Source of the DNA: Massilia rhizosphaerae
GTDB lineage: Bacteria; Pseudomonadota; Gammaproteobacteria; Burkholderiales; Burkholderiaceae_D
Assembly (NCBI RefSeq): GCF_016093545.1
Contig: NZ_JADKYX010000030.1
Span: forward strand, 1 to 64,000
Direction of reading: 5' to 3'
Length of the DNA stretch: 64,000 nt
Shown: piece after piece, positions 10,830 through 50,018 of the stretch
Layout of the letters: each line of letters starts with the position of its first letter
Position numbering within the stretch: the stretch's first letter is position 1
Notes under the pieces: model-generated
Database searches by the model: none
What the model was told of the DNA's origin: nothing
What the model saw: only the letters and a program-made list of their open reading frames with translations
Translations under genes and position numbers: made by a program

Positions 10830-11026
10830 TGATGTAAGTACGACCGCACAACCCGGGACAGACGCTACGAAAAACTAGTCCGGCACGAGTTGAAAAGGCT
10901 GGTCTATAGAATTTGTTCAAGATATTGACGGCCCTGAGGTCAACATCGGACTAGGCTTTTCATCCAACCATGCCGTGTTAGTTCAGGTTTGCGTCAACGA
11001 ATCTGGCAACGCACAAGAATACGATG

Positions 11027-11857: not shown

Positions 11858-11884
11858 GATCTTTTTAAAAACAAACCGAAGCGC

Positions 11885-12880: not shown

Positions 12881-12882
12881 TA

Positions 12883-14118: not shown

Positions 14119-14140
14119 CTGTTTCCGGATCCTGTGGCAA

Positions 14141-15456: not shown

Positions 15457-16382
15457 GCTTCGCTCGCGCGGCCAACATCACAGAAATACTGTTCAAGTGA
15501 CTGAACAGGATCTAAATATTCCGACATGCAATGTAGAGAAAGACCAGGCACGGGCGTCAGCAATTTGCGGCCCATTCCCGCGATCAGTCTGTCGAACATC
15601 AAATGGTCTGGCTTGGTCGTGTACAAATGTTCAAAGTCACGCCGAAATACCTCATGCTTCATCATGAACGTACCGCATGTGGACGGGGCAGTCGTCCAGT
15701 GCCGCGATTCGGTCGCGTAGAGTGTCGATTGACCGTAATGTGCCGGATATTTGTACCGGTCCGGATGATCGTATAAGGATACATAGTCGAAATTCAGTCC
15801 CGACGAATACAATTTGAATACCTCATCGACCCAACCGTCAGCGTGCAGGTAATCATTCTCGAGCAGGTAGACGATATCGCAAGGCTCGAGCGGCAGGTCT
15901 CTGACGACCCGCATCATCACCAATGCGGCTTCCACGGCCGAGCGCGCGCTGTGCAGTTGTACTTCGATGTCGCGGTCACATTGTCGCAAATATGTCGCAA
16001 ACGGGTCAATTTCGAGTTGCTCGGCAGTACCGTTATACAGCACAAGAATGCGAACCCGACTCGCGTGATTACTGGCTTCGACAGTTTCGACGAGGCGGCG
16101 AAAGCATTTAACGTAGTCAAAACCATCCGGTCTCGCTTTCGATGGGAATCTGGCGATGTCTTGCGAAATGAATACGTGACGATAAACGATGACAAGATCG
16201 CCGATCTGGGCTGCTTTCGGCCTCGGCTGTGGTGCCGGTGACGGCCGGAGTCGGCGATACAAATTCCAGATCGATCGAACCATGCCGTGCGCTCGGATCT
16301 TCTGCTTGAAGCGCAGTTTTGCCAAAAGTCTCTCGTCGGAACCCGACACGTTATGAGTTTTATGAAAAATTGAATAAGCCAT
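15453..16382 (-). CDS. Putative glycosyltransferase
   Basis: The 309-residue protein is soluble with a basic N-terminus. VRILVLYNGTAEQLE and the acidic CDIVYLLENDYLHADGWVDEVF block near residue 175 resemble the nucleotide-sugar/metal region of GT-A glycosyltransferases; TAPSTCGTFMMKHEVFRRD follows where the acceptor loop is expected. I cannot name a family. The start is uncertain: an internal Met at residue 34 (16283) is an alternative, and neither has a strong ribosome site. The 103 bp between this gene and wzx show no clear signal. Confidence 0.6.
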   Translation of the reverse strand: MAYSIFHKTHNVSGSDERLLAKLRFKQKIRAHGMVRSIWNLYRRLRPSPAPQPRPKAAQIGDLVIVYRHVFISQDIARFPSKARPDGFDYVKCFRRLVETVEASNHASRVRILVLYNGTAEQLEIDPFATYLRQCDRDIEVQLHSARSAVEAALVMMRVVRDLPLEPCDIVYLLENDYLHADGWVDEVFKLYSSGLNFDYVSLYDHPDRYKYPAHYGQSTLYATESRHWTTAPSTCGTFMMKHEVFRRDFEHLYTTKPDHLMFDRLIAGMGRKLLTPVPGLSLHCMSEYLDPVQSLEQYFCDVGRASEA

Positions 16383-16485
16383 ATCAATGCCGGAGTCTTA
16401 TACGGGCGGCAACGCTGCCGCTGCAGCGGATTGCCCGGATTACGAGCCAAACGCCATCAATCGACAAGGATTTGCAGATCGCTGG

Positions 16486-17997
16486 TTATGCCGTCTTGAT
16501 GAATCTGCCACGTGTCAGCTTTGCCCTCATCGGTGGCGACGAGACTATACCGGCGGCCAATGTCAGCGCGCTGATCAGAGCAATCAAAAGAGACAGTTCG
16601 ATTCTGCCTGACGGCAGCGGAAGCACATACTTTGCCAACAACACGAACGTGAGTGGAAGGACTAGAATTGGCAAAATATCTTCGAAAACCCAGCGGAAAT
16701 TGAAATCTTTCGCTGCAAAACGCCTGTGTATTCTAGGCACCCAAAGCACGAAATATCCCGAGTTGGCAAGTAGCCATGCCCAGCCCGCGCCATTCATGCC
16801 GAAACGCGTAGTTGCCCATATCAGCCCCGGGATAAGCGTGATGACAAAAATCACGTTTCCGATCAGGTGCAGCTTGAGATCGCCCTTAGCAAATTGCAAA
16901 TAGTACGGAAACGCGGCAAACGCCATGACGCCGTTGCCGAGCGCGTACAACTGCAAAGAAGTGCTTGCCTTTGCCGCGATCTCAGCACTACCAGTCCACG
17001 CAAGAAGCACCGGCGATGCAAAACAAACAAGTACGACGGTCGTCGGAATCGCGGCTACCGCAACAAGTTGAGTCGATTGCCGATAAAGCTTAAGCAAGCC
17101 TGTGTCATTTGCCTCGGCGGCCAATTTGCTCATACGCGGCCAGATCGACGCTGTAATTGGCGCACTGATGACCGTCACACCACTCGCGATCATGACGGCC
17201 ATAGTAAAAAAGCCATAATCGGCTAAGGGCAAGATACCAGACAGGATCAGTTTATCGGTCTGCGTGACTAGAACCCAGACCGACGAGGTAAACGTAATCG
17301 TCATCGCAAACTTGACGATGGGAAGTACCGGTTTTATCGACCAACCGATGGCCCCGTCTAGCGAACGTTTAGACGGCAACATTCTCAGATTGATCAGATA
17401 AAGCAGCAGTAATTCCGTCAGCGCCACGACCAACTGGTGGATGAAGAATACTTTCGGCGTGTACGAAAAGGCGGCCATCGAACCCAGCACAGCGACGAAA
17501 CGCAAAGTCGCGATAAAAACATTGAAGCCGCTCATGAGAATAAGCCGCTCGGCACCGGTGATCGCACCGCGGTACAGCCCCCCCATCCATCTCAACGCCA
17601 CGCATACCGACATGATCTGGACAGCGTTGATCACTGCATTCTTATCAATGTGAGTGACGTTCAGCCAACGCGACGCGACAATATCGGACATGCATAGAAG
17701 TGCGCCCCCGCCGAGGACCGCGATCGCGCAGAAAATCAAGCTAATGGCACGGAATAGCTGCCGATAAAGCAAGGGAGACAATGCGCCGCCGTGGAATCGC
17801 GCGGTTTCCCTTCCGATCGTGGGCGTGAGGCCCAAATCGAGCATGCCGAAGAATGCCTGCAGCATTGCGAAAAATGCCACCAAGCCATACGCCTCTGCTC
17901 CCATGTAACGCACATAGGTAGGCACGAGCACGATGCCTACTATCGTGATATAAAGTTGGCTCGCATAGTTGGCAAGAATGGGGAGCCGTAAACTCAC
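16486..17997 (-). CDS. wzx: Oligosaccharide flippase (Wzx-like)
   Basis: The 503-residue protein has about 12 membrane segments starting immediately at the N-terminus (LPILANYASQLYITIVGIVLVPTYVRYMGAEAYGLVAFF), the characteristic opening of MOP-superfamily polysaccharide flippases. It should move undecaprenyl-linked repeat units to the periplasmic face for Wzy. Its ATG overlaps the stop of the acetyltransferase gene by four bases. With wzy, wzz and wza it defines a Wzx/Wzy-dependent pathway rather than an ABC-transporter one. Confidence 0.9.
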   Translation of the reverse strand: MSLRLPILANYASQLYITIVGIVLVPTYVRYMGAEAYGLVAFFAMLQAFFGMLDLGLTPTIGRETARFHGGALSPLLYRQLFRAISLIFCAIAVLGGGALLCMSDIVASRWLNVTHIDKNAVINAVQIMSVCVALRWMGGLYRGAITGAERLILMSGFNVFIATLRFVAVLGSMAAFSYTPKVFFIHQLVVALTELLLLYLINLRMLPSKRSLDGAIGWSIKPVLPIVKFAMTITFTSSVWVLVTQTDKLILSGILPLADYGFFTMAVMIASGVTVISAPITASIWPRMSKLAAEANDTGLLKLYRQSTQLVAVAAIPTTVVLVCFASPVLLAWTGSAEIAAKASTSLQLYALGNGVMAFAAFPYYLQFAKGDLKLHLIGNVIFVITLIPGLIWATTRFGMNGAGWAWLLANSGYFVLWVPRIHRRFAAKDFNFRWVFEDILPILVLPLTFVLLAKYVLPLPSGRIELSLLIALISALTLAAGIVSSPPMRAKLTRGRFIKTA

Positions 17998-18443
17998 GAA
18001 GTGCCCAGACGAGAAGATTGATGTGAAAAAAGGTCGAGTTCCATGAACACCGACACGTCAGACTCGCTCGCTACCGTAAAACCCAAACGCCCGTAGAAGG
18101 AACGCAGGCCGGGATTGGTCTTGTAGATTTCCAAACGCATCGTCTTGAAGCCTGCTTTGGCTGCGTATGCAAATGAGCTTCTCAACAACGCAGAGCCAAG
18201 ACCGGTCGATCGGGCGGACTTGCGCACTGCGACCATCGTGACGAAAGCGCTATCCACAGCCGAATCGTTGCAATATACGGCGACCAATCCGCTAATTTTC
18301 CCGGCCTCGTAGACGGTAAAGAGCACCGCCTTCTCGGCGATCTTCCGGCAGTACACGTCGAAGTCGAGCTTAACCGACAGCCTCGGCGTAAAGTCGTTAT
18401 CTACTTCGACGAGCAAATCCTTGATGTCTTCTGCAACACTCAT
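17994..18443 (-). CDS. GNAT-family N-acetyltransferase
   Basis: The 149-residue protein shows the acetyl-CoA binding core of GNAT enzymes: VTMVAVRKSARSTGLGSALL (the R-x-x-G-x-G/A pyrophosphate loop appears as RSTGLG) and the later YKTNPGLRSFYGRLGF block. In this operon, next to two DegT-type aminotransferases, N-acylation of an amino-deoxysugar nucleotide is the likely role. Start and stop overlap the neighbouring genes by four bases each. Confidence 0.85.
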   Translation of the reverse strand: MSVAEDIKDLLVEVDNDFTPRLSVKLDFDVYCRKIAEKAVLFTVYEAGKISGLVAVYCNDSAVDSAFVTMVAVRKSARSTGLGSALLRSSFAYAAKAGFKTMRLEIYKTNPGLRSFYGRLGFTVASESDVSVFMELDLFSHQSSRLGTS

Positions 18444-19381
18444 TTTGCGCCTTGGCCTTCGAAATACGCCCTAATCTCACGACAGATCGCATAAACATCT
18501 TCGAGATTCGTATCCTGGTGCACGGGCAGATTCAAAATCTGGCTGGAGATTTCGACGGCAAGCGCATGTTCTTCGCACCGGAGCTGGTCGATCATCCGGT
18601 AGTACAAGGCGATCATCGTCATACCTTTCGACATCAGGTGAAAATAGAGCGGCTCCCGCTTGCCATGCTTGACCCGGATCGCAAAGCTTTGCGGAATGTC
18701 CGCGTCTTCCAACACATACATGATCTCGATGTGGTTTTGGAGACCTTCGAGCAACTGCACGTAGGCTTCATAGTTCTGGCGGCGGCGGCTGCTGATCGCG
18801 GAAAAATCGGACAATGCGTATTGAGCCAGTACATCCCTGTCCGCTTCAATCTCGGCCGGAATCGGCATTATTGAACGGTCCTTGGAGTTTACTTTTAACA
18901 AACCCCCGGTGTCCAAGGCAAGGTATTTATGGAGCGAATAAAACGCGAACTCGCCGACATCGCCGATACGGCTGCCCGGAGCATCCAGATAAAAAGCGTG
19001 GGCGCAGTCTTCCACCAAGACGGCGCCGACATCGCGACAAAGCTGCGCGAGCGCGTCGAGATCGTTCCGGCAAAAACCGAAGTAGTGAATCACGAGGACG
19101 ATATCGAATCCCTTCGCGAGCTGGCGCGCAAGATCCTCCATGTCAACACTCAGGTCTCCCTTGATTTTATAGAAATCAAATTCCGCACCGTTGGCCACCA
19201 CCGGATCATGAACGCCCGAACCCTCGCGTGCGGTGTAGCCAATATACCCTGGGAGAAGCACCCGCCCGGATTTGCCACCGCAAACGGACGCGATGACGTG
19301 GCCCCACGCTGCGCGTGCATTTTTTGTAAAATGAGCATTCAGCACGCAATTACGTTTGTCGGTAGCAGATTTCGAAATCAT
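18440..19381 (-). CDS. DegT/DnrJ/EryC1/StrS-like PLP-dependent protein, divergent
   Basis: The 313-residue protein has the aminotransferase fold type I order: an N-terminal cofactor region, VLVIHYFGFC, LVEDCAHAFYLD (the Asp that pairs with the pyridine nitrogen), and FAFYSLHKYLALDTGGLL, where Lys of SLHKY is in the Schiff-base position. It is shorter than classical sugar aminotransferases (about 370) and the normal PGY/T-rich N-terminal part is reduced (RVLLPGYIGYTAREG). It may act on an unusual substrate. Its ATG follows the wbqC stop by 21 bp. Confidence 0.75.
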   Translation of the reverse strand: MISKSATDKRNCVLNAHFTKNARAAWGHVIASVCGGKSGRVLLPGYIGYTAREGSGVHDPVVANGAEFDFYKIKGDLSVDMEDLARQLAKGFDIVLVIHYFGFCRNDLDALAQLCRDVGAVLVEDCAHAFYLDAPGSRIGDVGEFAFYSLHKYLALDTGGLLKVNSKDRSIMPIPAEIEADRDVLAQYALSDFSAISSRRRQNYEAYVQLLEGLQNHIEIMYVLEDADIPQSFAIRVKHGKREPLYFHLMSKGMTMIALYYRMIDQLRCEEHALAVEISSQILNLPVHQDTNLEDVYAICREIRAYFEGQGAK

Positions 19382-19402
19382 CGTCTTTTCAATACTTTTC
19401 TA

Positions 19403-20110
19403 TTACAAGCAATAGGTGTCGTCCAGTAGTTCACGGATACGTTCAGGAGAATTGAACATCATGACGTCGATGATAGACAATCCTGTCTCGAAAGTGCCGC
19501 GCCGCTGGCTGTAGGGTTCGAGATTATTACCGAGGAACTTCAACTTGATCTGGGCATCTTGGAATTGTTCCGGCTTGAAAATTTCGACGCCGCCGGTCGG
19601 GTTAACGTATTCAGTGCCGCCAAGAGCCTTGGTGATATGCAAGGCCCATTCGCCGGGATGCGTTACTGGATCAATGGCAAGTTGCATCTCGCTGAAAATA
19701 TCCAATTGCAAATTGACACCGATGTATTTACAAGTCTCACGCAGTACATTCGCGTTCAAATGCGTAATGCTGTCCGTGTCGACCTGCAGGGATCTTTCGA
19801 TGACGGCAACGGTATCGGCATAGAACGGAGAACGCTTCTTGTAATGCTGGAGCTGACGCAACAGCTTGCCTTTCCAGTCCTCGGCGTTCCGAATCTTGAC
19901 ATCTTTGATCTTTGCACCGAATTCGAACTTTTCCAAAGGCACTGCTACATATTGCCAGCCCTCTTCCGGTTTCAAAATACGATTCCGCTCGATCCAGCCA
20001 TGACGAATGAACTGGACATCGTCAAACAAGATGAAACGATCGGTCGCCTTGATCAGGCTATAATAGCCGACGTAAGGGAAAAAGTAGGGCTGCATGATCG
20101 CGTATTTCAT
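19403..20110 (-). CDS. WbqC family protein
   Basis: The 235-residue product opens with MKYAIMQPYFFPYVGYYSLI and FDDVQFIRHGWIERNRIL and contains LQLDIFSEM and NPTGGVEIF, all hallmarks of the WbqC family, found in many O-antigen and capsule loci. The family's reaction is not established to my knowledge; its frequent pairing with sugar aminotransferases suggests acylation or modification of an amino sugar. GAGGAG lies seven bases before the ATG, and the gene starts one base after the upstream aminotransferase stop. Confidence 0.92.
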   Translation of the reverse strand: MKYAIMQPYFFPYVGYYSLIKATDRFILFDDVQFIRHGWIERNRILKPEEGWQYVAVPLEKFEFGAKIKDVKIRNAEDWKGKLLRQLQHYKKRSPFYADTVAVIERSLQVDTDSITHLNANVLRETCKYIGVNLQLDIFSEMQLAIDPVTHPGEWALHITKALGGTEYVNPTGGVEIFKPEQFQDAQIKLKFLGNNLEPYSQRRGTFETGLSIIDVMMFNSPERIRELLDDTYCL

Positions 20111-20111
20111 C

Positions 20112-21224
20112 TTATGCTCCTCGTTTCAGGACCGAGACCACGCGGAACACATCTTCGTCCGTGAGTGCCGGGTAAATCGGCAAGCACAGGACTTTCAAGG
20201 CGGCTTTAGTAGCGACAGGAAGATTCGACTGTGCGGCAGACGGCAAGCTACGGTACATCGGAAAATCCGTGATCAATGGATAAAAATAGCGCCGTGCATT
20301 GACGCCATATTCCTTGAGCTGTGCGTATAGGGCATCGCGACTCATCGGATAATCGCTTTCCACCAGAATAGGGAAGTAAGAATTGTTGGCAACGATTTGG
20401 CCGGTATCGCCAAGGCAAACAATGTTCGGAACATCATGAAGCTCTTGCCGATATATCTCAGCAATTTCAGCACGTCTACGCATAATGTGGTCGAGATGCT
20501 TCAGTTGCAGCAGTCCAAAGGCCGCATTGATTTCGCTCATCTTGCCATTGATACCCGGGGCAACCACCGTGGTCTCATCCACAAAACCAAAATTCTTCAG
20601 GTGATCGATACGCTGCTTGGTTTTCGCATCGGGACAAACGATAGCACCACCCTCGAAGGTGTTAAAGACCTTCGTGGCATGAAAGCTCAGCACGGACAGG
20701 TCGCCGTAATTCAAGACGCTCCCATGGTCGTCGCGCACGCCGAAGGCATGTGCGGCATCGTAGATAACCTTCAGGTTGTAATTGTCGGCGACGCGTTGGA
20801 TCGCGTGAACGTCACAGGGATTGCCATAGCAGTGGACCGGCATGATAGCGGTGGTCTGCGGCGTGATAGCGGCCTCGATCTTGGCCGGATCGAGATTCAA
20901 GCTACCAGGCTCGACATCCACGAACACTGGCCTGTTGCCGTTCCACAGCAACGAGTGAGCAGTCGCAACGAACGAGTAAGGCGTCGTGATTACTTCGCCT
21001 GTTACTCGCAAGGCCTGCAGCGCCGTAATTAAGGCCAGAGTGCCATTCGAAAACAGCGCAATATGCTTGACGCCCAGATATTCGCACAAGGCTTTTTCGA
21101 GCTCCTGGTGGTACGGGCCGCCGTTGGTCAGCACTTTGTTATCCCAGATTTGCGTCAGATGAGGAATGAACTCATCAAGTGGCGGCAAATAAGGCTGAGT
21201 GACGTATATCGGCTTGTTTTTCAT
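20112..21224 (-). CDS. DegT/DnrJ/EryC1/StrS-family sugar aminotransferase
   Basis: I start at MKNKPIYVTQPYLPPLDEF (21224), the family's usual N-terminus; a longer frame to 21380 would run into wzz. The 370-residue PLP enzyme has NGTLALITALQAL, TTPYSFVATAHSLLWNG, VIYDAAHAFGV (Asp for the pyridine nitrogen) and SFHATKVFNTFEGGAIV, whose Lys forms the Schiff base. Such enzymes transaminate keto-deoxysugar nucleotides, here plausibly derived from the RfbB product dTDP-4-keto-6-deoxyglucose. The exact sugar cannot be told from sequence alone. Confidence 0.9.
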   Translation of the reverse strand: MKNKPIYVTQPYLPPLDEFIPHLTQIWDNKVLTNGGPYHQELEKALCEYLGVKHIALFSNGTLALITALQALRVTGEVITTPYSFVATAHSLLWNGNRPVFVDVEPGSLNLDPAKIEAAITPQTTAIMPVHCYGNPCDVHAIQRVADNYNLKVIYDAAHAFGVRDDHGSVLNYGDLSVLSFHATKVFNTFEGGAIVCPDAKTKQRIDHLKNFGFVDETTVVAPGINGKMSEINAAFGLLQLKHLDHIMRRRAEIAEIYRQELHDVPNIVCLGDTGQIVANNSYFPILVESDYPMSRDALYAQLKEYGVNARRYFYPLITDFPMYRSLPSAAQSNLPVATKAALKVLCLPIYPALTDEDVFRVVSVLKRGA

Positions 21225-21280
21225 TTCAGGTACTCTTGTTATCTTGAAAATGCTGCCAAGGCAGCGATTATCTGGGTATG

Positions 21281-22558
21281 TCAGCGGAAACCAAGGTGTT
21301 TCAGGAGTTCGTTCCACTGAGACGATGGCTGAAGCCCAGACCGAATCGCTTTCTCCCTTGCCTCGGCCGCGAAAGCCCAAAGTGCCGTAAACAGGAAGGT
21401 GAAAGACGCCGACAGAATTACGATGATCGCGCGCTTGGGCTTGAATTTCCGTTCAGGAACAACCGCAGGATCAAGGACCTGGACAACCGTCGAGCCGTTC
21501 GCCTCGTCCAACCGCGCCACCTCGTATTGTTTGGCAAGCAGTTCGTAAAGCATTTGGTAATACTTGACATTGCGCAGGAGCTTGATATTTTCCAGACCAC
21601 TCTTGCCGTCTGTATTGGGCGCAGCGTTGCGCGAAGCGTCGGGACGGCCATTCTCAAGCCTCGACAGCTCGGCGCGTAGGCTTGCCAGCTCTTCCGTAGT
21701 CTCCTTGAATTCCGGGTGACTCGACGTGACGAATGCCCGCATTGAATTGAGCTTGATTTCGTCCGCCGATATCTGCGCACGCAAGCGCGCCACCGTCTCG
21801 AGTACCGATCGACTCTCGGCATCGACGCTGACTACACCATGGGTATCGAGCGCGCCCTTCAATGCCACCTCCGCATTGGCCAGATTATTCTTGGCCTGCT
21901 CCAGCTGCCGCTCGAAGAATACACGACGCTGACCGGCCTCGGTTATGGCCAGGACGCTAGTTAGCTTGAGAAGCTCCGAAACATAGGCATTGGCGAGCCT
22001 CGCAACCAGTTGCTGATCCTTGTCTTGAACCTCGATCGTGATGATTCCGTCCTTACCAGCTACAATCGCCGTATTCTCTTCGAGTTGCTTGCGGGCCTTT
22101 TCGTTAGAGCGGGTATCGTAGATTTTCCTCAGATTGAATTGCTCAATCAAGCGGTCGGCCACAGTCCTACTCCGAAGCATGCCGATGTACAGATCGTTCG
22201 GATTTTTCAGGCCGGCGCTACTCGCCGCCAGCCCTGCCATGCCACCTAACTGCGATAGGAGGGCAGCCGCGCCGGATTGCGCTTGCTGAGGCGGAAGCAG
22301 CTTGGTATCCGCTTGATAAATGTTCGGAAGCGCAAAGCTCAACGCGGCCGAGACCACCCCGGCTACCAGAGGCAACAGGATAATCTGCTTCTTGCGCTTG
22401 GCCATTCCGATTAGAAAATCCATCAAGCTCAGCTCGATGCTTTCGTGCCCTGGAGCATTTGCTCGGGAATCGGTCTTTGATGGATTCTTTTCAACAGCAA
22501 TATCATTCATACATTTATCGAGGTCAGAGTCTTCGCGTACCTGAATGAGATCAACCAT
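21281..22558 (-). CDS. wzz: Wzz-family chain-length determinant / polysaccharide co-polymerase
   Basis: The 425-residue protein has two membrane segments (about residues 58-78 and 378-398) bracketing a periplasmic coiled-coil domain, with the Pro-rich PERKFKPKRAIIVIL before the second one, which is the Wzz signature. It regulates polymer length with Wzy and contacts Wza. It lacks the C-terminal tyrosine-kinase domain of Wzc. ATG at 22558 shares a base with the wza stop (TGATG), so the two are coupled. The N-terminal 45 residues are hydrophilic and longer than in O-antigen Wzz. Confidence 0.92.
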   Translation of the reverse strand: MVDLIQVREDSDLDKCMNDIAVEKNPSKTDSRANAPGHESIELSLMDFLIGMAKRKKQIILLPLVAGVVSAALSFALPNIYQADTKLLPPQQAQSGAAALLSQLGGMAGLAASSAGLKNPNDLYIGMLRSRTVADRLIEQFNLRKIYDTRSNEKARKQLEENTAIVAGKDGIITIEVQDKDQQLVARLANAYVSELLKLTSVLAITEAGQRRVFFERQLEQAKNNLANAEVALKGALDTHGVVSVDAESRSVLETVARLRAQISADEIKLNSMRAFVTSSHPEFKETTEELASLRAELSRLENGRPDASRNAAPNTDGKSGLENIKLLRNVKYYQMLYELLAKQYEVARLDEANGSTVVQVLDPAVVPERKFKPKRAIIVILSASFTFLFTALWAFAAEAREKAIRSGLQPSSQWNELLKHLGFR

Positions 22559-24906
22559 CAATTGCGCAGCGTCTTAACAGCAGCAGCACCGAGACCGAAA
22601 TTAGCGAGCACTTGTGTCCAATCACGCGCGCCTTGGATGAATTTACTCCAAGCGGTTTGACGATCCAATTTTTCGGGTACGACGATGGTATCACCCGGCA
22701 TGATCTCGACACCGCCAATCTTGCCGAAGAACCATCCTTGTGACTGAGCCGACACAACAGTACCGTCGACGCGCAATACGAATATGTTATCCATGTCGGC
22801 GTCATCAGAAACTCCGGCAATTGTCAGGTAATCGTTGACGCGAGTATTTGGTTTCCAAAGCGGCGAAGCTTCAGCATTAACCGCGCCAAACACGTTCACG
22901 AATGCCGGCCTCGGCGGAACCACCAGACGATCACCGTTTTGCAGCGACATTTGCGGCAGATGAGCAAAAGAATTGTCATTGGGGTCCAAGCCAAATGCAA
23001 TACGGCCAGTCGGCTGGAGTTTTCGAAAACGCGCGATGCGCTCTTCCGCAATTGCACGTTCTGCGTCGAACTGCGCGGTCGCCGCGGCGGCATCAGTTTG
23101 GCTCATGCCACGCAGGTTGGCTGCTTGTGTAGATTCCGCGCTACGAATCTGGGCCTCGAAACGGTCCGCAGCACGCTTGAGATTCGCTTCCTGTTCCTTG
23201 CGTACTTCTTCGCGATAAAACGCGGTGCCGAACATATATGCGCTCGAGGTCGGGCCGCCGGCCTTTGCGAGAAGGGTTTGAAGCGTATCGCTACGGGTCA
23301 TCTGATAGACGCCCGGCACATTGACTTCGCCCTCGACGCGCACGAACACCTGACGCTTTGCCATTGGCACCGCCACATCATTTTGTGAGAAGATCGTGAC
23401 TGTATCGCCTGGCTGCAACTGAATATTGTCGGGGCCATTAGGGTTCGTGAATACGTTACCCAAATTGAATGGGATTAGTTGTACTTTCAGGTCCGAACGA
23501 TTCACGCGCTCGATAACGGCATAATCCCAGTTGATTTCATCCACCAGCCCGCCAATACGGGATGCAATAGTATCCGCCCTCTCTCGAGTGTCCTTCTCGT
23601 TCTCACCGGTAACGATTGCGTTGTTCTGGCGCTTGACCGAATTGCGTGTCAACAAGTATTCCTTGCTTGGAATCAGGTCACTCACCCGCATACCAGATTT
23701 GAACGGAGCACGCACCGGTTGATCCACGTTACCGCGCAAGACCACAGCATTCGAGAAGTCCGGCGTGATCGAAACAACGTTCAGCACGTCGCCATTTTTT
23801 AGAACACGCTTAAGTCCATCCGCATTCAGTGCAAATTCTTCTACAGTTCGCGGATGGCTGCTGTTCGGATCGATACGTTCAAGAAATGCCCGGCGCGGGT
23901 CGGCGACGATAGGCAGGCCGCCTGCAAAGTCCAGCAGAGACTCAATGGTTTCGCCTGTGTTCTTCAATTCGAACACAGCAGGGCTGTTGACCTTCCCGAC
24001 CAATGCAACGAAACCACCGGCAGGCGGAATGTAGATCGTGTCGCCATCTTGCAGCTTAATGTCTGCGGACTTATCACCCTTGGCAATGAAGGAATACAGG
24101 TCGAGTTCTGCCACCGCCTTGCCCCCACGCTTCACCTCGACGTGGCGCATACTGCCATTCGCATTCGGACCGCCACTGGAGAACAGCGCAGTCACCAGCG
24201 TTGACAGGCTCGACACAGTATAGGTGCCCGGACGATTGGCTTCGCCCACTACGTACACGGTGATCGCACGCAGCTGACCAAAGGTCACGTTGACGGTAAC
24301 GCCCTTATACAGCCGAGCGATGGCGGCACGAATGACATTCTGCGCATCGCCAGCTTTCACGCCAGCCAGCGGCACATTTCCGATAGTCGGAATCGAGATC
24401 GTGCCATTGCGGTCGATGGTAGCGCGGTAATCGACATCGATAGTGCCCCAGCCGCGGATCATCAGCTCATCTCCCGGGCCGAGCGGATAATCCGACGGAA
24501 CCGGAGCATTGGAAATCGGTGCAAACGTAGACGGCGCATTCGCAAAAAATTCGGCACCGAAAATTGGAAGTAGCTTACCCGTGTTCTCAGCAATGAATTT
24601 TTGGAATTCGCTTGGCTCTACCGGGCTCTTCTGCTGCACACCGACGTTCTGGGGATGCGGAACATTGGCGCCCCCAGCGCCACCTCGGATGGCCCCTTCC
24701 CCCAACTCGCTAACCTGACCATTGGTAATCAAGATCTTGCGTGCCGTTCCGCCGCTCAACCCGTTGGGCAGCGCGCCAACGCCCTGGTTCGAAGTGGCAA
24801 ATGGCTCCTGATTGAAGAGATCTGACTTGTTCGTATCTTGCGCGGATGCGGCAATGGAAGCGACGGCCATGACCACGACCGCAAAACTCTTGTTGAACTT
24901 GAACAT
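22558..24906 (-). CDS. wza: Polysaccharide export protein with SLBB domains (Wza-like)
   Basis: The 782-residue protein carries a signal peptide (cut near SAQD; no lipobox Cys, so not a lipoprotein by this start), then the Poly_export domain with YPLGPGDELMIRGWG near residue 140 and GTISIPTIGNVPLAG. Several SLBB-type repeats follow (VYVVGEANRPGTYTVS, VALVGKVNSPAVFEL, VFVRVEGEVNVPGVY), with a short coiled coil near 570-620. It is about twice the length of E. coli Wza, resembling the long SLBB exporters of other polysaccharide loci. It is the first gene of the operon, with a promoter about 130 bp upstream. Confidence 0.92.
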   Translation of the reverse strand: MFKFNKSFAVVVMAVASIAASAQDTNKSDLFNQEPFATSNQGVGALPNGLSGGTARKILITNGQVSELGEGAIRGGAGGANVPHPQNVGVQQKSPVEPSEFQKFIAENTGKLLPIFGAEFFANAPSTFAPISNAPVPSDYPLGPGDELMIRGWGTIDVDYRATIDRNGTISIPTIGNVPLAGVKAGDAQNVIRAAIARLYKGVTVNVTFGQLRAITVYVVGEANRPGTYTVSSLSTLVTALFSSGGPNANGSMRHVEVKRGGKAVAELDLYSFIAKGDKSADIKLQDGDTIYIPPAGGFVALVGKVNSPAVFELKNTGETIESLLDFAGGLPIVADPRRAFLERIDPNSSHPRTVEEFALNADGLKRVLKNGDVLNVVSITPDFSNAVVLRGNVDQPVRAPFKSGMRVSDLIPSKEYLLTRNSVKRQNNAIVTGENEKDTRERADTIASRIGGLVDEINWDYAVIERVNRSDLKVQLIPFNLGNVFTNPNGPDNIQLQPGDTVTIFSQNDVAVPMAKRQVFVRVEGEVNVPGVYQMTRSDTLQTLLAKAGGPTSSAYMFGTAFYREEVRKEQEANLKRAADRFEAQIRSAESTQAANLRGMSQTDAAAATAQFDAERAIAEERIARFRKLQPTGRIAFGLDPNDNSFAHLPQMSLQNGDRLVVPPRPAFVNVFGAVNAEASPLWKPNTRVNDYLTIAGVSDDADMDNIFVLRVDGTVVSAQSQGWFFGKIGGVEIMPGDTIVVPEKLDRQTAWSKFIQGARDWTQVLANFGLGAAAVKTLRN

Positions 24907-25033
24907 TGGGCGTTAGGGAAGTGAAGCGTGAATGCATGTGGACCAATCCAACATTTTAACTGAGGGCAACCGAGACTGGGAACCTTTTGTTGCGCCATGG
25001 GCCATTAATTGTGCTATGCAATATCGTGACTTC

Positions 25034-25061
25034 AACATATCTGCCACAGCAAGACTGTCAA
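25034..25061 (-). promoter_or_regulatory. Putative sigma-70 promoter of the polysaccharide operon
   Basis: On the minus strand TTGACA (25061-25056) is followed after 16 bases by TATGTT (25039-25034). Transcription would begin near 25,027, giving a leader of about 120 bases before wza. The region is AT-rich and no other minus-strand gene intervenes. Confidence 0.6.
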
Positions 25062-25104
25062 AGTATAAGTTGTGCTAACAGAGAGCAACTGGAGTGATCT
25101 TTTT

Positions 25105-25119
25105 GTTAAATTACTTAAC
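25105..25119. promoter_or_regulatory. Palindrome upstream of the polysaccharide promoter
   Basis: GTTAA-N5-TTAAC is a perfect inverted repeat centred about 85 bases upstream of the predicted start site of the wza operon, a normal distance for an activator site. The regulator cannot be named from the sequence. Confidence 0.4.
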
Positions 25120-25244
25120 ATATAAATGCAATCATGATGTGATTTTTGGTGAGAATTGGAACAAACATTTTTGTCTTCTTGGTAGCGACCAAGGTCGATT
25201 TTGATAAAATAAACACACCACACTTATGATTTGACGGATCTTCC

Positions 25245-26044
25245 GGCATGCCGTCATAACCTGGAGCCGCCCAGGATCCCCGTCCTGGCCGCGCCATCTA
25301 TTGCGCGATCGCGCCGCACACCAACTGCCTTTCTCATAGCGTTTCGACCGGGACTTTGCCCTTAAAGCGAACGAACCAGGTCCCCGCCTCCCATGCTCGT
25401 CAACTTCCGGGGCGCGTTGCCCTGCAACGCATGATGAGCCCGACGACGCATCTGCGTTCGACATGATGGTCGTCCCGACGGTGCCGCCAGCCCGCATGTT
25501 ACGCATCCTGACAAAGCCGTCGATCAGCTATGCAAAATTGAAACCACATCCTCGCCGGCATCGGGCTGACCAACGAGGCATCCGTTCCAACTCGTGTGCA
25601 GTGGCTGGTGGACCTTGGCGTCGCGCAAGGCTCACCCAATTCGTCCTGCATCACGGCAACCGGCGCATAGCGGGCGCCGAAATCGATGTCCCATTCTTCG
25701 GGGCCAGGACGATATCGCTCATCGGGCCGAGCAGAGCGCCGCTGCCGCCCCGAGTCAGTCGCGACTCCTCTTGGGAATGGCCGTCATACGCCGCGCCAAC
25801 TAATTGATACGCACGCGGCAACGGCACCATGCAGCGGCCGGGGCCAAATTCGAAGGATCGATGGACGCGATCCGTGTGCAGCTCCCCGTGCAGCGCAGCC
25901 AACTGCGGCGCGATGAAGATCCTTCACCCATTGCGGCCTGCAACGTGGGCGCAATGCGGTCCGCCATGTGCGCTGTCTTGAGGCGCGCGCGACAACGGCG
26001 AGCCGGCCGACACGCGCGTCGTCGATTAATGTCGCGAGCTTCAT
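25245..26044 (-). pseudogene. Decayed fumarylacetoacetate hydrolase-family gene
   Basis: Pieces of one FAH-family protein lie in order on the minus strand in different frames. From ATG at 26044 come MKLATLIDDARVGRLAVVAR, then after frame changes LPRAYQLVGAAYDGHS with GSGALLGPMSDIV, then DIDFGARYAPVAVMQDELG, LHTSWNGCLVGQPDAG, and RNMRAGGTVGTTIMSN with SCVAGQRAPEVDEHG. The jump from DIDFGA to the PVAVMQDELG block skips roughly 50 residues present in intact family members, so there is an internal deletion as well as several frameshifts and a stop. FAH enzymes hydrolyse a C-C bond in aromatic amino-acid breakdown. No intact copy is in the window. Confidence 0.8.
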
Positions 26045-32284: not shown

Positions 32285-32383
32285 ACCTCTGCTGGTGTAA
32301 GAATTAAAACGATATTTTACACAGGGGCGTCTCCATCGGCCCCGCCAAAATGCAAATTCGATGGAAAAAAAAGGAATCCCAAA

Positions 32384-32485
32384 AAATCGTCGCAAGCGGC
32401 AGCAGTGTCGGTGCAGACGCAGAGAGCGCAGCCGCGCAACATGGCGGGCATCGCAACGGCAAGGCGAAAGCGCAGCGACGGATTT
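32384..32485 (+). ncRNA. Structured RNA element in the rne leader, paired with 47,906-48,005
   Basis: An outer helix joins AAATCGTCGC (32384-32393) with GCGACG-G-ATTT (32475-32485). Inside, TGTCG (32406-32410) pairs with CGGCA (32457-32461) and CCGC (32432-32435) with GCGG (32444-32447). The unpaired blocks AGCGGCAGCAG, AGCGCAGC, GCATCGCA and GCGCAGC recur in the same order in the prkA leader, where the three helices are kept with different bases. It lies 660 bases before rne on the same strand, so it is either a cis element of the leader or a separate small RNA. I cannot name the family. Confidence 0.6.
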
Positions 32486-33145
32486 CACGGGATTTCTAGA
32501 CGTGTACGCACATTCCTGTGCGAACCTGGGTTGCACCGCAGTTGCAACCGGGTGGCCGCACAGGATGCAGGATTGGATTGTTTGGAAGTTTAAGGATAAG
32601 TACCGGCAAGCCGGCCCCAGGGTCGGCTCGCCGGGTGATGGTGTCGATAACGCTTGCCGTTTCGCCCGACCCGAAGTCAGAACCTAGAAGCCGTCGTGAG
32701 CGGTAGTGGTGTTGTTGGAGACAGCGATCCGGGAAGATCATGCGGGTGCGCAGTGCGCATCGCGATCTTCATGGTCCGGATCGCGCCCCGGCTACATCGC
32801 TTGGCCCGGCTGTTCCGGGGTTCCACAGGCAGCACACGCGGTCTGGAATCAAGGCTGATATTCGCCTGATTCGCCGGCCGGTATGCATGCCGACTGAAAG
32901 TCTGGCTGCGTCGCACCGCTTGCCTGCCCCTGCGCCGCCCCGATCGGGCCGCCCGGGCCGAGCAAGACGATCGTGCGCGCGGCAACTCGTTCGACGCCAC
33001 TGCGCCCTGTGGCCGGCAATGCCGTGTCACACCCCGGGCATACCACCGCCAACACTCCCTTCCCGCGTACATCCCTGTACTTTCGTCGCTCTGTACTCTG
33101 TACAAGACGGCATGAAACGGCCCACGGGTCGCGGAGTTTATAAAA
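32486..33145 (+). promoter_or_regulatory. rne: Remainder of the long rne leader
   Basis: These 660 bases carry no convincing gene. They contain hairpins, for example GGTTGCA/TGCAACC at 32529-32549 and a GC-rich CCGGC/GCCGG pair around 32,602-32,634. In E. coli the long rne 5' UTR senses RNase E activity and destabilises its own mRNA; a comparable role here is inferred only from length and structure. TGTAC motifs repeat at about 33,060-33,105. Confidence 0.45.
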
Positions 33146-36100
33146 ATGAAACGTATGTTGTTTAACGCTACGCAGCAAGAGGAGCTGCGCGTAGCGATCG
33201 TCGATGGCCAAAAACTGATCGACATCGATATCGAGACCGCCGGTCGCGAACAGCGAAAATCGAATATCTACAAAGGCGTCATCACCCGCATCGAACCCTC
33301 CCTCGAAGCCTGCTTCGTCAGCTACGGCGAAGAACGCCACGGCTTCCTCCCCTTCAAAGAAGTTGCCCGCACCTATTTCCGCGACGGCGTCGACGTCCGC
33401 AACTGCACCATCAAGGAAGCCCTGCGCGAAGGCCAGGAAATCATGGTCCAGGTGGAAAAGGAAGAACGAGGCAACAAGGGCGCGGCCCTGACCTCGTTCA
33501 TTTCGCTGGCAGGCCGCTACCTGGTCCTGATGCCGAACAATCCGCGCGGCGGCGGCGTGTCGCGCCGCGTCGAAGGCGAGGAACGCCAGGAACTGCGCGA
33601 GACGATGGACAAGCTGGACCTGCCGCAAGGCATGTCCGTGATCGCCCGCACGGCCGGCATCGGCCGTACCGTCGAAGAACTGCAATGGGACTTGAATTAC
33701 CTGATGCAACTGTGGCGCGCGATCGAAGGCGCCGGCAAATCGGCCCCGGGTCCGTTCCTGATCTATCAAGAGTCCTCGCTGGTCATCCGCGCCATCCGCG
33801 ACTATTTCCAACCTGACATCGGCGAAGTCCTGATCGACACGGACGAGATCTTCGACCAGGCCCAGCAGTTCATGAGCCACGTGATGCCCGACATGGCGCA
33901 CCGCGTGAAGCGCTACACGGACGATGTGCCGCTGTTCTCCCGTTTCCAGATCGAACACCAGATCGAAACCGCGTATTCGCGTACCGTGCCGCTGCCGTCC
34001 GGCGGCGCCATCGTGATCGACCACACGGAAGCGCTCGTCTCCATCGACGTCAACTCGGCCCGCGCCACCCGCGGCTCGGACATCGAGACCACCGCCTTCA
34101 ATACCAACTGCGAAGCGGCCGACGAAGTGGCCCGCCAGCTGCGCCTGCGCGACCTGGGCGGCCTGATCGTCATCGACTTCATCGACATGGAAGTCGCCAA
34201 GAACCAGCGCGAAGTGGAACAGCGCCTGAAGGACGCCCTGCACCATGATCGTGCACGCGTGCAGATGGGCAAGATTTCGCGCTTCGGCCTGATGGAATTG
34301 TCGCGCCAGCGCCTGCGTCCGTCGCTGTCGGAAGGCTCGCACGTGACGTGCCCGCGCTGCTCGGGCACCGGCCACATCCGCGATACGGAATCGTCCGCCC
34401 TGCAGGTGCTGCGCATCATCCAGGAAGAGGCGATGAAAGAAAATTCGGCCGCGATCCACGTCCAGGTCCCGGTCGACGTCGCCGCCTTCCTGCTGAACGA
34501 AAAGCGCGGCGAAGTGCTGAAGATCGAGACGCGCCACCGCATCGCCGTCATCCTGATCCCGAACAAGCACCTGGAAACCCCGCACTACAAGCTCGAGCGC
34601 ATCAAGCACGACGACCCGCGCCTGGACGACGCCGGCGCCAGCTACACGCTGGCCGAGTCGGCCGACACGGACATGGCCTACGCCAAGCGCCAGAAGGAAG
34701 AAACGAAGCCGCGCCAGGAAGCCGTCGTCAAGACCATCACCCCGGCCCAGCCGGCGCCGATGGTCGACCGTCAGCCGGCCAAGCCAGTCGAGGCGCCGGC
34801 ACCCGTCGCCGCCGCGCCCGCTTACGTGCCGCCGCCGGCTGCGGAAGGTTTCTTCGCCAAGCTGCGCAACTTCTTCTTCGGCCGCCCGGCCCAGATCGCA
34901 CAGCAGCCCACCCCGACCGCACCGCCGAAGCCCGCTGAAGCGGCCCCGGCCGCAGGCGAACGCGGCGAGCGCAATGGCCGCGGCCAGCGCAACGCCCGCG
35001 GCGGCCGCAATGCCGCCGGCACCGGCAAGAACCGCGCCGAGCGCGAGGAACGCGACGTGAAATCCGCCGGCGCCGAAGAAGGCGTCAAGCCGGTCGAGGC
35101 CGAAGGCAAGCCGGCGCGTCCACCGCGCCAGCCGCGTCAACCGCGCGAGCCGCGCGAGACGGCCGCCGTCACCGCCGACGGCCAGCCGCAAGCGCCGCGC
35201 GGCGAACGTGCCGAGCGTGCGGAACGCGGCGAGCGTCCCGAGCGCGGCGAACGTCCGGAACGCGCACCGCGCCAGCCGCGCCCACCGCGCGAAGGTGGCG
35301 AGCGTACCGAACGCGCCGAACGCGCCCCGGTCGAGGCCAAGAGCGAAGAACTGAACGCGGCCCAGGCCGTGGCGGCCCAGGCGGCCATCACGCTGGCCGG
35401 CGAGCCGGAAATCCCGGAAGCCCTCAAGCCGGTGACGACCGCCGGCCCTGGCAATGAAGAGCTCGACACGGACGCGCAGGGCGACGAGCCGCGCCGCCGT
35501 CGCCGTCGTGGCGGCCGTAACCGCAACCGCCGCGATCGCGACCAGGTCGAGGGTGCCGAGCAGGATGCCGTCGAAGGCGAAGCCGCGCCGGCCTTCACGC
35601 CGGTGGCCGACGAGGAAGTCGCCAAGGTGCATGCGGAAACGAAGGCTGCGAAGACCAAGCCGGATACGACGCCCGCCAAGGCCGCCGCACCGGGTCCGTG
35701 GCCGTTCCCGACGACGGAATCGGTCAAGGCCGCCGCCGTGAAAGCCGCCGCCGAGAAGGCTGCCGCCGAGCAGGCCGAAGCCGCCCGCGTGCAGGCCGCC
35801 AAGGCGAAGGCCGAGCAGGAGCAGGCCGCCGCCGCACTGGCCGCTGCGTCGGCCGAGGCCGCCGTACAAGCCGAACCCGTCGTCGAGGCAGCCGCGACCG
35901 TCCAGACGCCGTGGCCGTTCCCGACGTCCGAGTCCGTCGCCGCCGCCGTGGCCGAGAAGACTGCCGCCGATGCGGCCGCCGAGCCGGTCGAGACGCCGGC
36001 GCCGGCAGCAGCGCCGACCCCGGCTCCTGCCCCTGCCCCTGCCCCTGCCCCTGCCCCGGCTCCGGTCGAGATCGAGCAGCCTGTCGTCGCGCAAGCGGCA

Positions 36101-36349
36101 CCGGTTGCGACAGCTGCCGCACCGGCACCGGCACCGGTCGTCGCCGCACCGGTCGTCGCCGCACCGGCCGACCTGAACGAGCTGCTGGAGAAAGCCGGCC
36201 TGACGCTGGCCTCGACGGATCCGGAAAAACTGCGCGCCGCCCAGGAAGCGGCCGCGCAAGCGCCGGCGCCGGCGCGTCCGCGCCGCACGCGCAAGTCGGC
36301 GCCGCCGCCGGTCGACGAGCCGCTGATCCAGGTGGATACGCGTCAATAA
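33146..36349 (+). CDS. rne: Ribonuclease E
   Basis: RNase E is the main endoribonuclease for mRNA decay and rRNA/tRNA maturation and scaffolds the degradosome at the membrane. The 1067-residue protein begins [22 protein letters not shown], with the S1 domain ([24 protein letters not shown]), the 5' sensor/RNase H region, the DNase I-like site ([13 protein letters not shown] and LIVIDFIDM, with the metal-binding Asp residues) and the Zn-link [12 protein letters not shown] near residue 405. From about 530 on the tail is disordered: Arg-rich RNA-binding stretches ([17 protein letters not shown] near 788), Ala/Glu coiled segments, two PWPFPT-ESV motifs (near 850 and 920) and a Pro-Ala tract. The degradosome partners cannot be read from it. 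Confidence 0.97.
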
Positions 36350-47670: not shown

Positions 47671-47699
47671 TTGACTTCGAGAACTAATAGGCAGATAAT
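47671..47699 (+). promoter_or_regulatory. Sigma-70-type promoter for the prkA operon leader
   Basis: TTGACT (47671-47676), a 17-base spacer and GATAAT (47694-47699) match the sigma-70 consensus well. Transcription from about 47,706 would give a 390-base leader before prkA that includes the hairpins and RNA element described below. AT-rich DNA precedes it. Confidence 0.65.
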
Positions 47700-47802: not shown

Positions 47803-47905
47803 GGTGAAACCGGATGAAAACAAGAACATCGCCCTTCGTTTTGTGTCAGATCTTCTGACCTCCAGACTCGGGCGGCGACCCCAACAAGAACAACTGGGGA
47901 CCTTG

Positions 47906-48005
47906 AAAAACCGTCGCGAGCGGCAGCAGTTTTGTTCGAGAAGCGCAGCTGTACTTGGGTACAGCGAGCATCGCAGGACAAAAATGCAACGCGCAGCAGG
48001 TTTTT
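47906..48005 (+). ncRNA. Structured RNA element in the prkA leader, related to 32,384-32,485
   Basis: AAAAACC (47906-47912) pairs with GGTTTTT (47999-48005), TTTTGT (47930-47935) with ACAAAA (47978-47983), and GCTGTAC (47948-47954) with GTACAGC (47959-47965) around a TTGG loop. The blocks AGCGGCAGCAG, AGCGCAGC, GCATCGCA and GCGCAGC match the rne-leader element in sequence and order, while all three helices differ in bases but are kept. It ends 90 bases before the prkA ATG. Cis regulator or separately acting small RNA; family unknown to me. Confidence 0.62.
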
Positions 48006-48034
48006 CGATGTGCCCACTGCCGGAACGGGGCTTG

Positions 48035-48095: not shown

Positions 48096-50018
48096 ATGAC
48101 CATTTTTGACAACTACGCAGCCCGCTACGAGCGTACCCGGGAAGAGGAATACTCCCTGTCTGAGTACCTTCAGCTTTGCAAAAAAGATCCCCTGACTTAC
48201 GCCAGCGCTCCCGAGCGCATGCTGGCCGCAATCGGCGAGCCCACCCTGGTCGACACCCGCCTCGACCCGCGCCTGTCGCGCATCTTCGCCAACAAGGTCA
48301 TCAAGGTCTATCCCGCTTTCCGCGAGTTCTACGGCATGGAGGAAGTGATCGAACAGGTCGTTTCCTATTTCCGTCACGCGGCCCAGGGCCTGGAGGAGCG
48401 CAAGCAGATTCTTTACCTGCTGGGACCGGTCGGCGGCGGCAAGTCGTCCATCGCGGAAAAACTGAAGCACCTGATGGAACAGGTGCCGTTCTATGCGCTG
48501 AAAGGCTCGCCGGTGAACGAATCGCCGCTCGGCCTGTTCAACGAGGAAGAGGACGGCGCCATTCTCGAAGAAGACTACGGCATCCCACGCCGCTTCCTGC
48601 GCGCGATCCCGAGCCCGTGGGCCGTCAAGCGCCTGCACGAATACGGCGGCGACATCAACAAGTTCCGCGTCGTCAAACGCTATCCGTCGATCCTCAAGCA
48701 GATCGCCATCTCGAAGACGGAACCGGGCGACGAAAACAACCAGGACATTTCCTCGCTGGTCGGCAAGGTCGACATCCGCAAGCTGGAAGACTATGCGCAG
48801 GACGATCCGGACGCCTACAGCTATTCCGGCGGCCTGTGCCTGGCGAACCAGGGCCTGATGGAATTCGTCGAGATGTTCAAGGCGCCGATCAAGGTCCTGC
48901 ACCCGCTGCTGACGGCCACGCAGGAAGGCAATTACAAGGGCACCGAGGGCTTCGGCGCGATCCCGTTCGAAGGCATCATCCTGGCGCACTCGAACGAATC
49001 CGAGTGGAAGACCTTCCGCAACAACCGCAACAACGAGGCGTTCCTCGACCGGATCTACATCGTCAAGGTGCCCTACTGCCTGCGCGTGTCGGACGAGATC
49101 AAGATCTACGACAAGTTGCTGCGTAACTCCTCGCTGGATAAAGCACCGTGCGCGCCGGGTACGCTGCGCATGATGGCCCAGTTCGCCATCCTGTCGCGCC
49201 TGAAGGATCCGGAAAACTCGAGCGTCTATTCGAAGATGCTGGTGTACGACGGCGAGAACCTCAAGGACACCGATCCGAAGGCCAAGTCGCTGCACGAATA
49301 CGTCGACTATGCGGGCGTGGACGAAGGCATGAACGGTCTGTCGACCCGCTTCGCCTTCAAGATCCTGTCCAAGGTCTTCAACTTCGACAACACCGAAGTG
49401 GCGGCGAACCCCGTGCACCTGCTGTACGTGCTGGAACAGCAGATCGAGCGCGAGCAATTCCCGGGCGAGACCGAACAGCGCTACATGTCGTACATCAAGG
49501 AGCACTTGGCGAACCGCTACGTCGACTTCATCGGCAAGGAGATCCAGACGGCCTACCTGGAAAGCTATTCCGAGTACGGCCAGAACATCTTCGACCGCTA
49601 CGTCACGTTCGCCGACTTCTGGATCCAGGACCAGGAGTTCCGCGATCCGGACACGGGCGAAAGCTTCGACCGCGAGACGCTGAACGCCGAGCTCGAGAAG
49701 ATCGAGAAGCCGGCCGGCATCTCGAACCCGAAGGATTTCCGCAACGAAATCGTCAACTTCGCGCTGCGCGCACGGGCGACGAACGGCGGCAAGAATCCGG
49801 CGTGGACCAGCTACGAGAAGTTCCGCACGGTGATCGAGAAGAAGATGTTCTCGAATACCGAGGAGCTGCTGCCGGTGATTTCGTTCAACGCGAAGGCCAG
49901 TGCGGAAGATGCGACCAAGCACGCCGACTTCGTTGCACGTATGGTCGAAAAAGGCTATACGCCCAAGCAGGTGCGCCTGCTGTGCGAGTGGTACTTGCGC
50001 GTCAGGAAATCCTCGTAA
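48096..50018 (+). CDS. prkA: PrkA family serine protein kinase (YeaG)
   Basis: PrkA/YeaG is a AAA-fold kinase that, with YeaH and SpoVR/YcgB, acts in stress and starvation responses. The 640-residue protein starts MTIFDNYAARYERTREEEYSL after AGAGGA; the Walker A YLLGPVGGGKSSIAEKLK lies near residue 107, a Walker B-like EGIILAHSNESEW near 290, and the PrkA C-terminal domain spans about 400-640. It is the first gene of a conserved three-gene operon. Confidence 0.96.
   Translation: MTIFDNYAARYERTREEEYSLSEYLQLCKKDPLTYASAPERMLAAIGEPTLVDTRLDPRLSRIFANKVIKVYPAFREFYGMEEVIEQVVSYFRHAAQGLEERKQILYLLGPVGGGKSSIAEKLKHLMEQVPFYALKGSPVNESPLGLFNEEEDGAILEEDYGIPRRFLRAIPSPWAVKRLHEYGGDINKFRVVKRYPSILKQIAISKTEPGDENNQDISSLVGKVDIRKLEDYAQDDPDAYSYSGGLCLANQGLMEFVEMFKAPIKVLHPLLTATQEGNYKGTEGFGAIPFEGIILAHSNESEWKTFRNNRNNEAFLDRIYIVKVPYCLRVSDEIKIYDKLLRNSSLDKAPCAPGTLRMMAQFAILSRLKDPENSSVYSKMLVYDGENLKDTDPKAKSLHEYVDYAGVDEGMNGLSTRFAFKILSKVFNFDNTEVAANPVHLLYVLEQQIEREQFPGETEQRYMSYIKEHLANRYVDFIGKEIQTAYLESYSEYGQNIFDRYVTFADFWIQDQEFRDPDTGESFDRETLNAELEKIEKPAGISNPKDFRNEIVNFALRARATNGGKNPAWTSYEKFRTVIEKKMFSNTEELLPVISFNAKASAEDATKHADFVARMVEKGYTPKQVRLLCEWYLRVRKSS

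Follow-up and report, generated by a model that had tools for sequence, protein, structure and literature searches.

Two intergenic elements near rne and prkA in Massilia rhizosphaerae belong to a dispersed, probably mobile hairpin family of Pseudomonadota

The window analyzed here, a stretch of 64,000 nucleotides from a contig of Massilia rhizosphaerae, contains two related elements in gaps between genes, one between rluC and rne and the other upstream of prkA (Table 1). The rne product was matched by the NCBIfam model TIGR00757 above its cut-off, with ribonuclease E as the best equivalog (868.5 bits, 40 below its cut-off of 908), and the prkA product was matched by NF011999 (1270.5 bits, cut-off 576). 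Both elements had been noticed in a sequence-only reading, at 32384-32485 and 47906-48005, and are present in the window as written there; each is bounded by an outer stem longer than first noted, so that the full elements reach beyond these ends. About 650 nt separate the end of the rne copy from the start of rne, which leaves the position in the rne leader claimed for that copy unproven, and the prkA copy ends about 80 nt before the prkA start codon. A promoter-like match at 47671-47699 is located about 200 nt upstream of the prkA copy, which may well be transcribed within the prkA leader and could influence prkA. Elsewhere in the window, positions 10000-26000 have a GC content of 47-57% (57-72% in the remainder) and mostly minus-strand ORFs of 200-780 aa; judging from composition and gene layout, this region is probably an acquired gene cluster.

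Table 1. Coordinates of the two elements and of their neighboring genes in the window
Feature	Position	Strand	Basis
Complete element upstream of prkA	47897..48015	+	R1 match; ends from empty sites of relatives
Left direct repeat ACTG, probable target-site duplication	47893..47896	+	one CCTG in relatives without element; family-wide tests
Right direct repeat ACTG, probable target-site duplication	48016..48019	+	empty-site comparison
P1 5' arm, outer stem, pairs with 47999-48015	47897..47912	+	predicted fold, covariation
P1 3' arm, outer stem	47999..48015	+	predicted fold, covariation
Internal loop L1, 5' strand, GTCGCGAGCGGCA	47913..47925	+	near-invariant among copies
P2 5' arm, pairs with 47976-47983	47930..47937	+	predicted fold, covariation
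Conserved internal loop L2, 5' strand, GAGAAGCGCA	47938..47947	+	copy alignments
P3 hairpin GCTGTAC-TTGG-GTACAGC	47948..47965	+	predicted fold, covariation
Conserved internal loop L2, 3' strand, GAGCATCGCA	47966..47975	+	copy alignments
P2 3' arm	47976..47983	+	predicted fold, covariation
Conserved internal loop L1, 3' strand, ACGCGCAGCA	47989..47998	+	copy alignments
Degenerate copy, rluC/rne gap	32373..32496	+	R1 E 3.9e-9; orthologous filled and empty sites; no R2 match
rne, RNase E, context	33146..36349	+	TIGR00757
prkA, PrkA family kinase, context	48096..50018	+	NF011999

The unit is about 120 nt long and consists of a variable outer stem (P1), a conserved internal loop (L1), a variable second stem (P2), a second conserved internal loop (L2) and an apical hairpin (P3). 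Four blocks are shared by the two window copies in the same order, as had been reported, but not at the same spacing: the gaps among the first three are 19 versus 12 nt and then 15 versus 18 nt. Similarly, of the three helices said to be kept with different base pairs, P1 and P2 are real and do differ between the copies, whereas in the rne copy the third helix is weak. The predicted fold of that copy has a small hairpin at the corresponding place, but the alignment of this helix to the covariance model R1 has low confidence, and the stretch is missing in nine genomes that carry the element at the same site. When folded with their flanks, both copies surpass 200 of 200 shuffles (z of -4.2 and -4.8); for the rne copy at its first-noted coordinates only, z is -1.7 and 12 of 200 shuffles are as good. 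The 15 copies used to build R1 do not include the rne copy, which the model nevertheless recovers at 42.7 bits (E 3.9e-9). The prkA copy, which is part of the training set, scores 139.1 bits (E 6.1e-35). A second model (R2) of the 58-nt core gave no match to the rne copy. This copy is partly decayed: P1, L1 and P2 are retained, and the L2/P3 core is rearranged.

The two window elements are members of one multicopy structured family rather than a pair. Thus, the earlier view of them as related stands, and the idea of just two copies does not. A search with a three-block pattern found 11 places in three other genomes of the genus in addition to five in the own genome; in the family, 4 of 195 genomes match, and the same pattern read in reverse matched in none of the genomes listed. 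Scanning the species genomes produced 78 stretches, 29 of which were recognized by eye as the element and 49 were not; nearly all of the 29 are from Massilia, and the others are from Telluria, Duganella and one Burkholderiaceae MAG. With R1, 23 distinct places were detected in the own genome (six reverse-strand echoes excluded), 18 of them above 100 bits and five weaker, including the rne copy. At E 0.01, R1 matches 50 of 62 Massilia genomes, the other 12 giving no match, and the richest genome has at least 54 matches, echoes included. Beyond the genus, R1 matches were obtained in 173 of 294 genomes (33 of 44 genera) of the family sample and in 24 of 349 genomes of the phylum sample, and R2 matches in 49 of 398 genomes (25 of 212 genera) of the phylum sample, a count that takes in genomes whose copies built R2; since the family and phylum searches were run at E 0.01 or 0.001 per genome, a few of these matches may be due to chance. 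Copy numbers per genome were counted up to a ceiling of 54 in the genus, 11 in the family, and 9 (R1) and 14 (R2) in the phylum, and are lower bounds where this ceiling is reached. In a plasmid collection, two 3-kb loci of another genus gave no match across the element, and a remote relative gave matches of 56-60 nt (90-93% identity) on Sphingobium plasmids, the two inspected being both intergenic.

Several related forms were also observed. The locus L308 has, at 1501-1562, a bare core hairpin of the family in a 16S-23S rRNA spacer after two tRNA genes, and this core hairpin matches at three places in its genome. In L294, L295, L297 and L317, extended relatives have further internal-loop modules stacked within the same hairpin, and L009, L010 and L014 form a subfamily with an additional small hairpin beside P3. 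Two copies are located head to tail behind prkA in L131, where an identical 12 nt before and after the first copy resembles a tandem duplication.

That no known family could be assigned agrees with the comparison with Rfam 15, which gave no match to the element (whole window at the gathering cut-off; both sites to E 5). For 20 related loci, only rRNA and tRNA matches were found. No description of the element, core letters included, was found in the main texts of the openly available papers searched.

We then considered the fold in alignment A4, which contains 85 copies, mostly from other genera, fitted to R1. Standard pairs occupy 96.8% of the cells, double changes are present at 35 of 43 pairs, and the covariation score is 0.643 versus 0.203 for shuffled alignments (reached by 0 of 500 shuffles) and at most 0.097 for slid partners. 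A shared fold under selection, as proposed from the two copies, is thus strongly supported by the 85. The sequence-only reading had also held that the fold would be accidental if homologs kept the sequence but not the pairings; the reverse was observed, with P1 and P2 varying freely while their pairing is kept and the internal loops remain almost constant. Loop 1 is GCGAGC opposite GCGCAG and loop 2 is GCGCAGC opposite GCGAGC, so the two look like one GA/GCA motif in reversed orientation, and a protein with two-fold symmetry may therefore bind the hairpin. Unlike those of usual inverted-repeat elements, the outermost bases of P1 differ from genus to genus, in a comparison that omits 14 copies without found anchors and counts identical arms once. 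Two loci with failed stems (L196 and L197) were omitted from later tests.

The pairs also distinguish the two strands. On one fixed strand, G.U cells outnumber A.C cells by 261 to 27, although the alignment was fitted to a model of that very strand. Among the 39 copies that are placed antisense just after a stop codon, the counts are 88 and 14 with two fixed G.U columns omitted, and the inner 12 pairs of P1 alone, taken without any fitted alignment, show a weaker excess (28 versus 12). Because the excess is kept in antisense copies, one strand appears to be the folded one, whatever the direction of the host gene. A DNA palindrome without strand preference is weakened by the first two of these counts.

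A fixed folded strand, a closed long stem and an intergenic placement would be compatible with separate small RNAs transcribed from many loci, that is, with sister small RNAs. Nevertheless, reading a number of flanks by eye disclosed no constant promoter or terminator, a scan of the + strand behind both window copies gave no terminator-like match, and neither copy has an Rfam match to E 5. In addition, because the stems vary freely, they hold no constant targeting sequence. We regard this explanation as very unlikely.

Comparison of orthologous sites revealed that the element is present or absent as a precise unit. At the rne site, 30 loci were taken from 60 genomes with a match; 16 carry the element, all at one position, and the other 14 are precisely empty, some copies being counted twice in these numbers. 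Ten of the 16 filled loci, the one in the window included, have a lost or rearranged central hairpin. At the prkA site, 30 loci were taken from 61, and two incomplete ones (L238 and L246) were left out; among the 28 aligned loci, a full copy is present in two (L232 and L233, the window's own among them), a degenerate match in L252 and stem-only remnants in L234 and L248, with the element absent in 23. In the two remnants, a few bases link the P1 arms, which looks like a clean excision of the interior. The prkA copy is flanked on both sides by the direct repeat of Table 1, where element-free relatives have a single CCTG. Across 62 Massilia-group copies with non-identical flanks, 26 share a 4-mer across their ends, compared with 15.9 expected (reached in 3 of 1000 shuffles), and 13 share a 5-mer, compared with 4.0 expected (0 of 1000), although the palindromic stem ends inflate these results somewhat. 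Direct repeats are clear in only a minority of the copies, and they were not evident when copy ends of other genera were inspected.

The pstB-phoU gap of another genus offers a further view, since 27 of 30 loci, L374 counted, carry the element there. Two of them, L364 and L372, agree at 285 of 303 positions at the pstB end and almost completely on the phoU side; their P1 and P2 are nevertheless largely different, and well paired in both. Such a difference at one site in close relatives suggests exchange or repeated insertion, and looks less like step-by-step change.

Features of a conventional transposon were also sought. P1 ends vary by copy and genus, and fixed terminal inverted repeats were not found; among 150 flanking proteins no parent element emerged, the largest cluster (seven members) representing one orthologous site. 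A cluster of three copies in L345 is flanked by riboflavin and nusB-like genes (named from translations), with no transposase. No mobilizing enzyme was found, and the Y1 (RAYT) family does not track the element. The latter result bears on whether the copies are a REP/REPIN family moved by RAYT (Y1 HUH) transposases, as might be suggested by an extragenic palindrome whose inner hairpin has GTAG- or CGTC-like letters at its base; REPs are likewise found behind genes and at stop codons, according to PMC3733652. However, the REP-type hairpin of 20-40 bp with a terminal GTAG/CGTC tag is not matched by this element, which is about 120 nt long and has its tag-like letters inside P1. Moreover, Y1_Tnp is missing from six genomes in which the element has between 3 and at least 54 matches, whereas all 12 genomes that lack the element have it (rho -0.06), and the surroundings of 30 RAYT loci gave one weak match of 22.2 bits. 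RAYT was rejected as the mobilizer, and a REP/REPIN origin is highly unlikely.

With regard to genomic placement, none of 156 copies (sets of 77 and 79, some counted twice) overlaps a gene called by a simple caller by more than 25 nt. Two truncated loci (L147 and L151) and the four of the 77 copies that lack one neighbor were left out before counting. After copies with related neighbors were dropped, 59 independent loci remained in Massilia, with 21 copies between divergent genes, 20 and 15 in the two orientations of tandem pairs and three between convergent genes; the corresponding numbers for 49 independent loci of other genera are 3, 26 and 9, and 11. Neighbors are dozens of unrelated genes. 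In genomes with few copies they include, as named from translations, pstB/phoU, ahpC/ahpF, fadB/fadA and citrate synthase, among others.

According to the sequence-only reading, rne and prkA could share a ligand, a protein or a control linked to RNase E; the elements would then be a riboswitch or another cis-regulatory RNA that serves both genes and is tied to RNase E or stress. Such an RNA would display strong covariation and internal loops that are conserved, as seen here, the promoter-like match mentioned above would place the prkA copy in a leader, and the proS-rppH gap, adjoining another RNA-decay gene, holds copies in five Massilia genomes and one Burkholderiaceae MAG (genes named from translations). 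These points are outweighed by neighbors of many kinds, by the mixed orientation in tandem pairs of Massilia, by the 12 Massilia genomes without a match, by the many relatives with empty rne and prkA sites and by an rne copy without a core-model match. Furthermore, some twenty copies in one genome, together with an intergenic choice of sites, can place two of them 15 kb apart, so that no common control is needed. We consider common control of this kind very unlikely. The rppH site was also considered as the ancestral one and dropped: of 30 loci drawn from genomes in which the element has one to three matches, none gave a match to proS, rppH, prkA, yeaH, rne or rluC beside the element, and a positive control at known sites did find the genes.

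Further examination of the element ends revealed a one-sided association with stop codons. In Massilia, the stop codon of the opposing gene lies within 6 nt of the P1 3' end or inside P1 at 16 of 23 loci, compared with 2.0 expected from random placement within the same gaps; in other genera, this holds for 32 of 37 loci, compared with 6.7 expected. The 5' end has no such excess (1 of 18 versus 1.2 in Massilia; 5 of 20 versus 5.6 in other genera). The divergent copies of Massilia, those near rne and prkA included, break the rule, which is therefore only a tendency there. At one pstB element the protein ends in RFG, presumably the usual C-terminal end of PstB, and hence the stop codon looks like the native one.

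Such a position would suit a hairpin that is useful to its host at 3' ends or between cistrons, where it might protect the message upstream of it, uncouple two neighboring genes in their expression or affect ribosomes as they terminate; copies would have spread by mobility and been kept by function. The adjacency to stop codons at 32 of 37 independent loci outside Massilia, the maintenance of the pstB-phoU copy despite differing stems, and similar positions at ahpC-ahpF, fadB-fadA and other pairs (again named from translations) all argue for it. On the other hand, the foldable strand behind stop codons is the antisense one (88 G.U versus 14 A.C), so the message lacks the favored fold, 12 of 62 Massilia genomes manage without any match, and 21 of 59 independent Massilia loci lie between divergent genes. 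We therefore treat host function as a serious alternative, albeit one that we hold to be somewhat improbable.

Taken together, we consider it probable (about 0.78) that both window elements are copies of a dispersed, non-coding, mobile hairpin of about 120 nt found in Burkholderiales and more widely in Pseudomonadota. Copies are dispersed, present or absent with precision, in some cases flanked by direct repeats of about 4 bp, biased in the strand that folds and attached to stop codons. A protein encoded elsewhere would recognize both loops on the folded single strand, either DNA or RNA, and the same protein would insert that strand, preferring untranslated DNA behind stop codons; in Massilia, gaps between divergent genes would also be favored. 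The window copies are then insertions that may alter nearby expression, with no common control of rne and prkA. Speaking against this explanation are the lack of any mobilizing enzyme among the candidates examined, the P1 ends that differ between genera and the direct repeats that are clear in a minority of copies. In addition, the pstB-phoU copy, present in 27 of 30 loci of one genus, and the pairing kept at shared sites could reflect a host function, and the 16-14 split at the rne site could be the outcome of one old insertion followed by many losses.

A more specific version of the mobile hairpin, which we consider unlikely, is that the element moves as a folded single strand, possibly as RNA or as a hairpin whose 3' end is free, its 3' end being joined to the antisense strand exactly at the stop codon of a translated gene. 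The target would be set by translation or by the edge of untranslated RNA, and the stems may be rewritten by copying from arm to arm while the recognizing protein holds the loops. Stop codons might be targeted, for example, by priming on messages that terminate with the stop codon or by integration into R-loops beginning there. If this were true, the element would stand for a new class of bacterial mobile elements. In any case, the attachment to stop codons at one end only is a measurable rule that every mechanism has to account for, and it makes the site choice of such repeats directly testable. It is also worth noting that a widespread hairpin with no Rfam match can mislead riboswitch searches, because its covariation is textbook-like.

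Among known systems, the attC sites of integrons function as single strands that are folded, with stems that vary and unpaired features that stay constant. By analogy, the present element may work in the same way; no attC boxes were noticed, however, its copies lie outside cassette arrays, and membership is not claimed. Like the stem-loop sequence families of PMC2267715, it is a foldable repeat distributed genome-wide; neither Ralstonia nor Burkholderia is named in the main text of that paper. MITEs, including CIR of Caulobacter, QMITE of Coxiella and ERIC, are reviewed in PMC10969869, and the element resembles them in several features: it is short, non-coding, intergenic, multicopy and foldable, with an outer inverted repeat and, in some copies, direct repeats. 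Unlike MITEs as treated there, its outer stem co-varies, its constant parts are the internal loops rather than the ends, and no parent insertion sequence was found. With the GTAG and CGTC families of REP/REPIN sequences, as covered in PMC3733652, it shares an extragenic hairpin, a position mostly behind coding regions, contact with stop codons and occurrence in many Pseudomonadota, but it is about three times or more longer, has two internal loops and strong stem turnover, and no link to RAYT was found. The element thus behaves like REPs and MITEs while failing a tested defining feature of each, and is therefore best seen as a variant of dispersed mobile palindromes.
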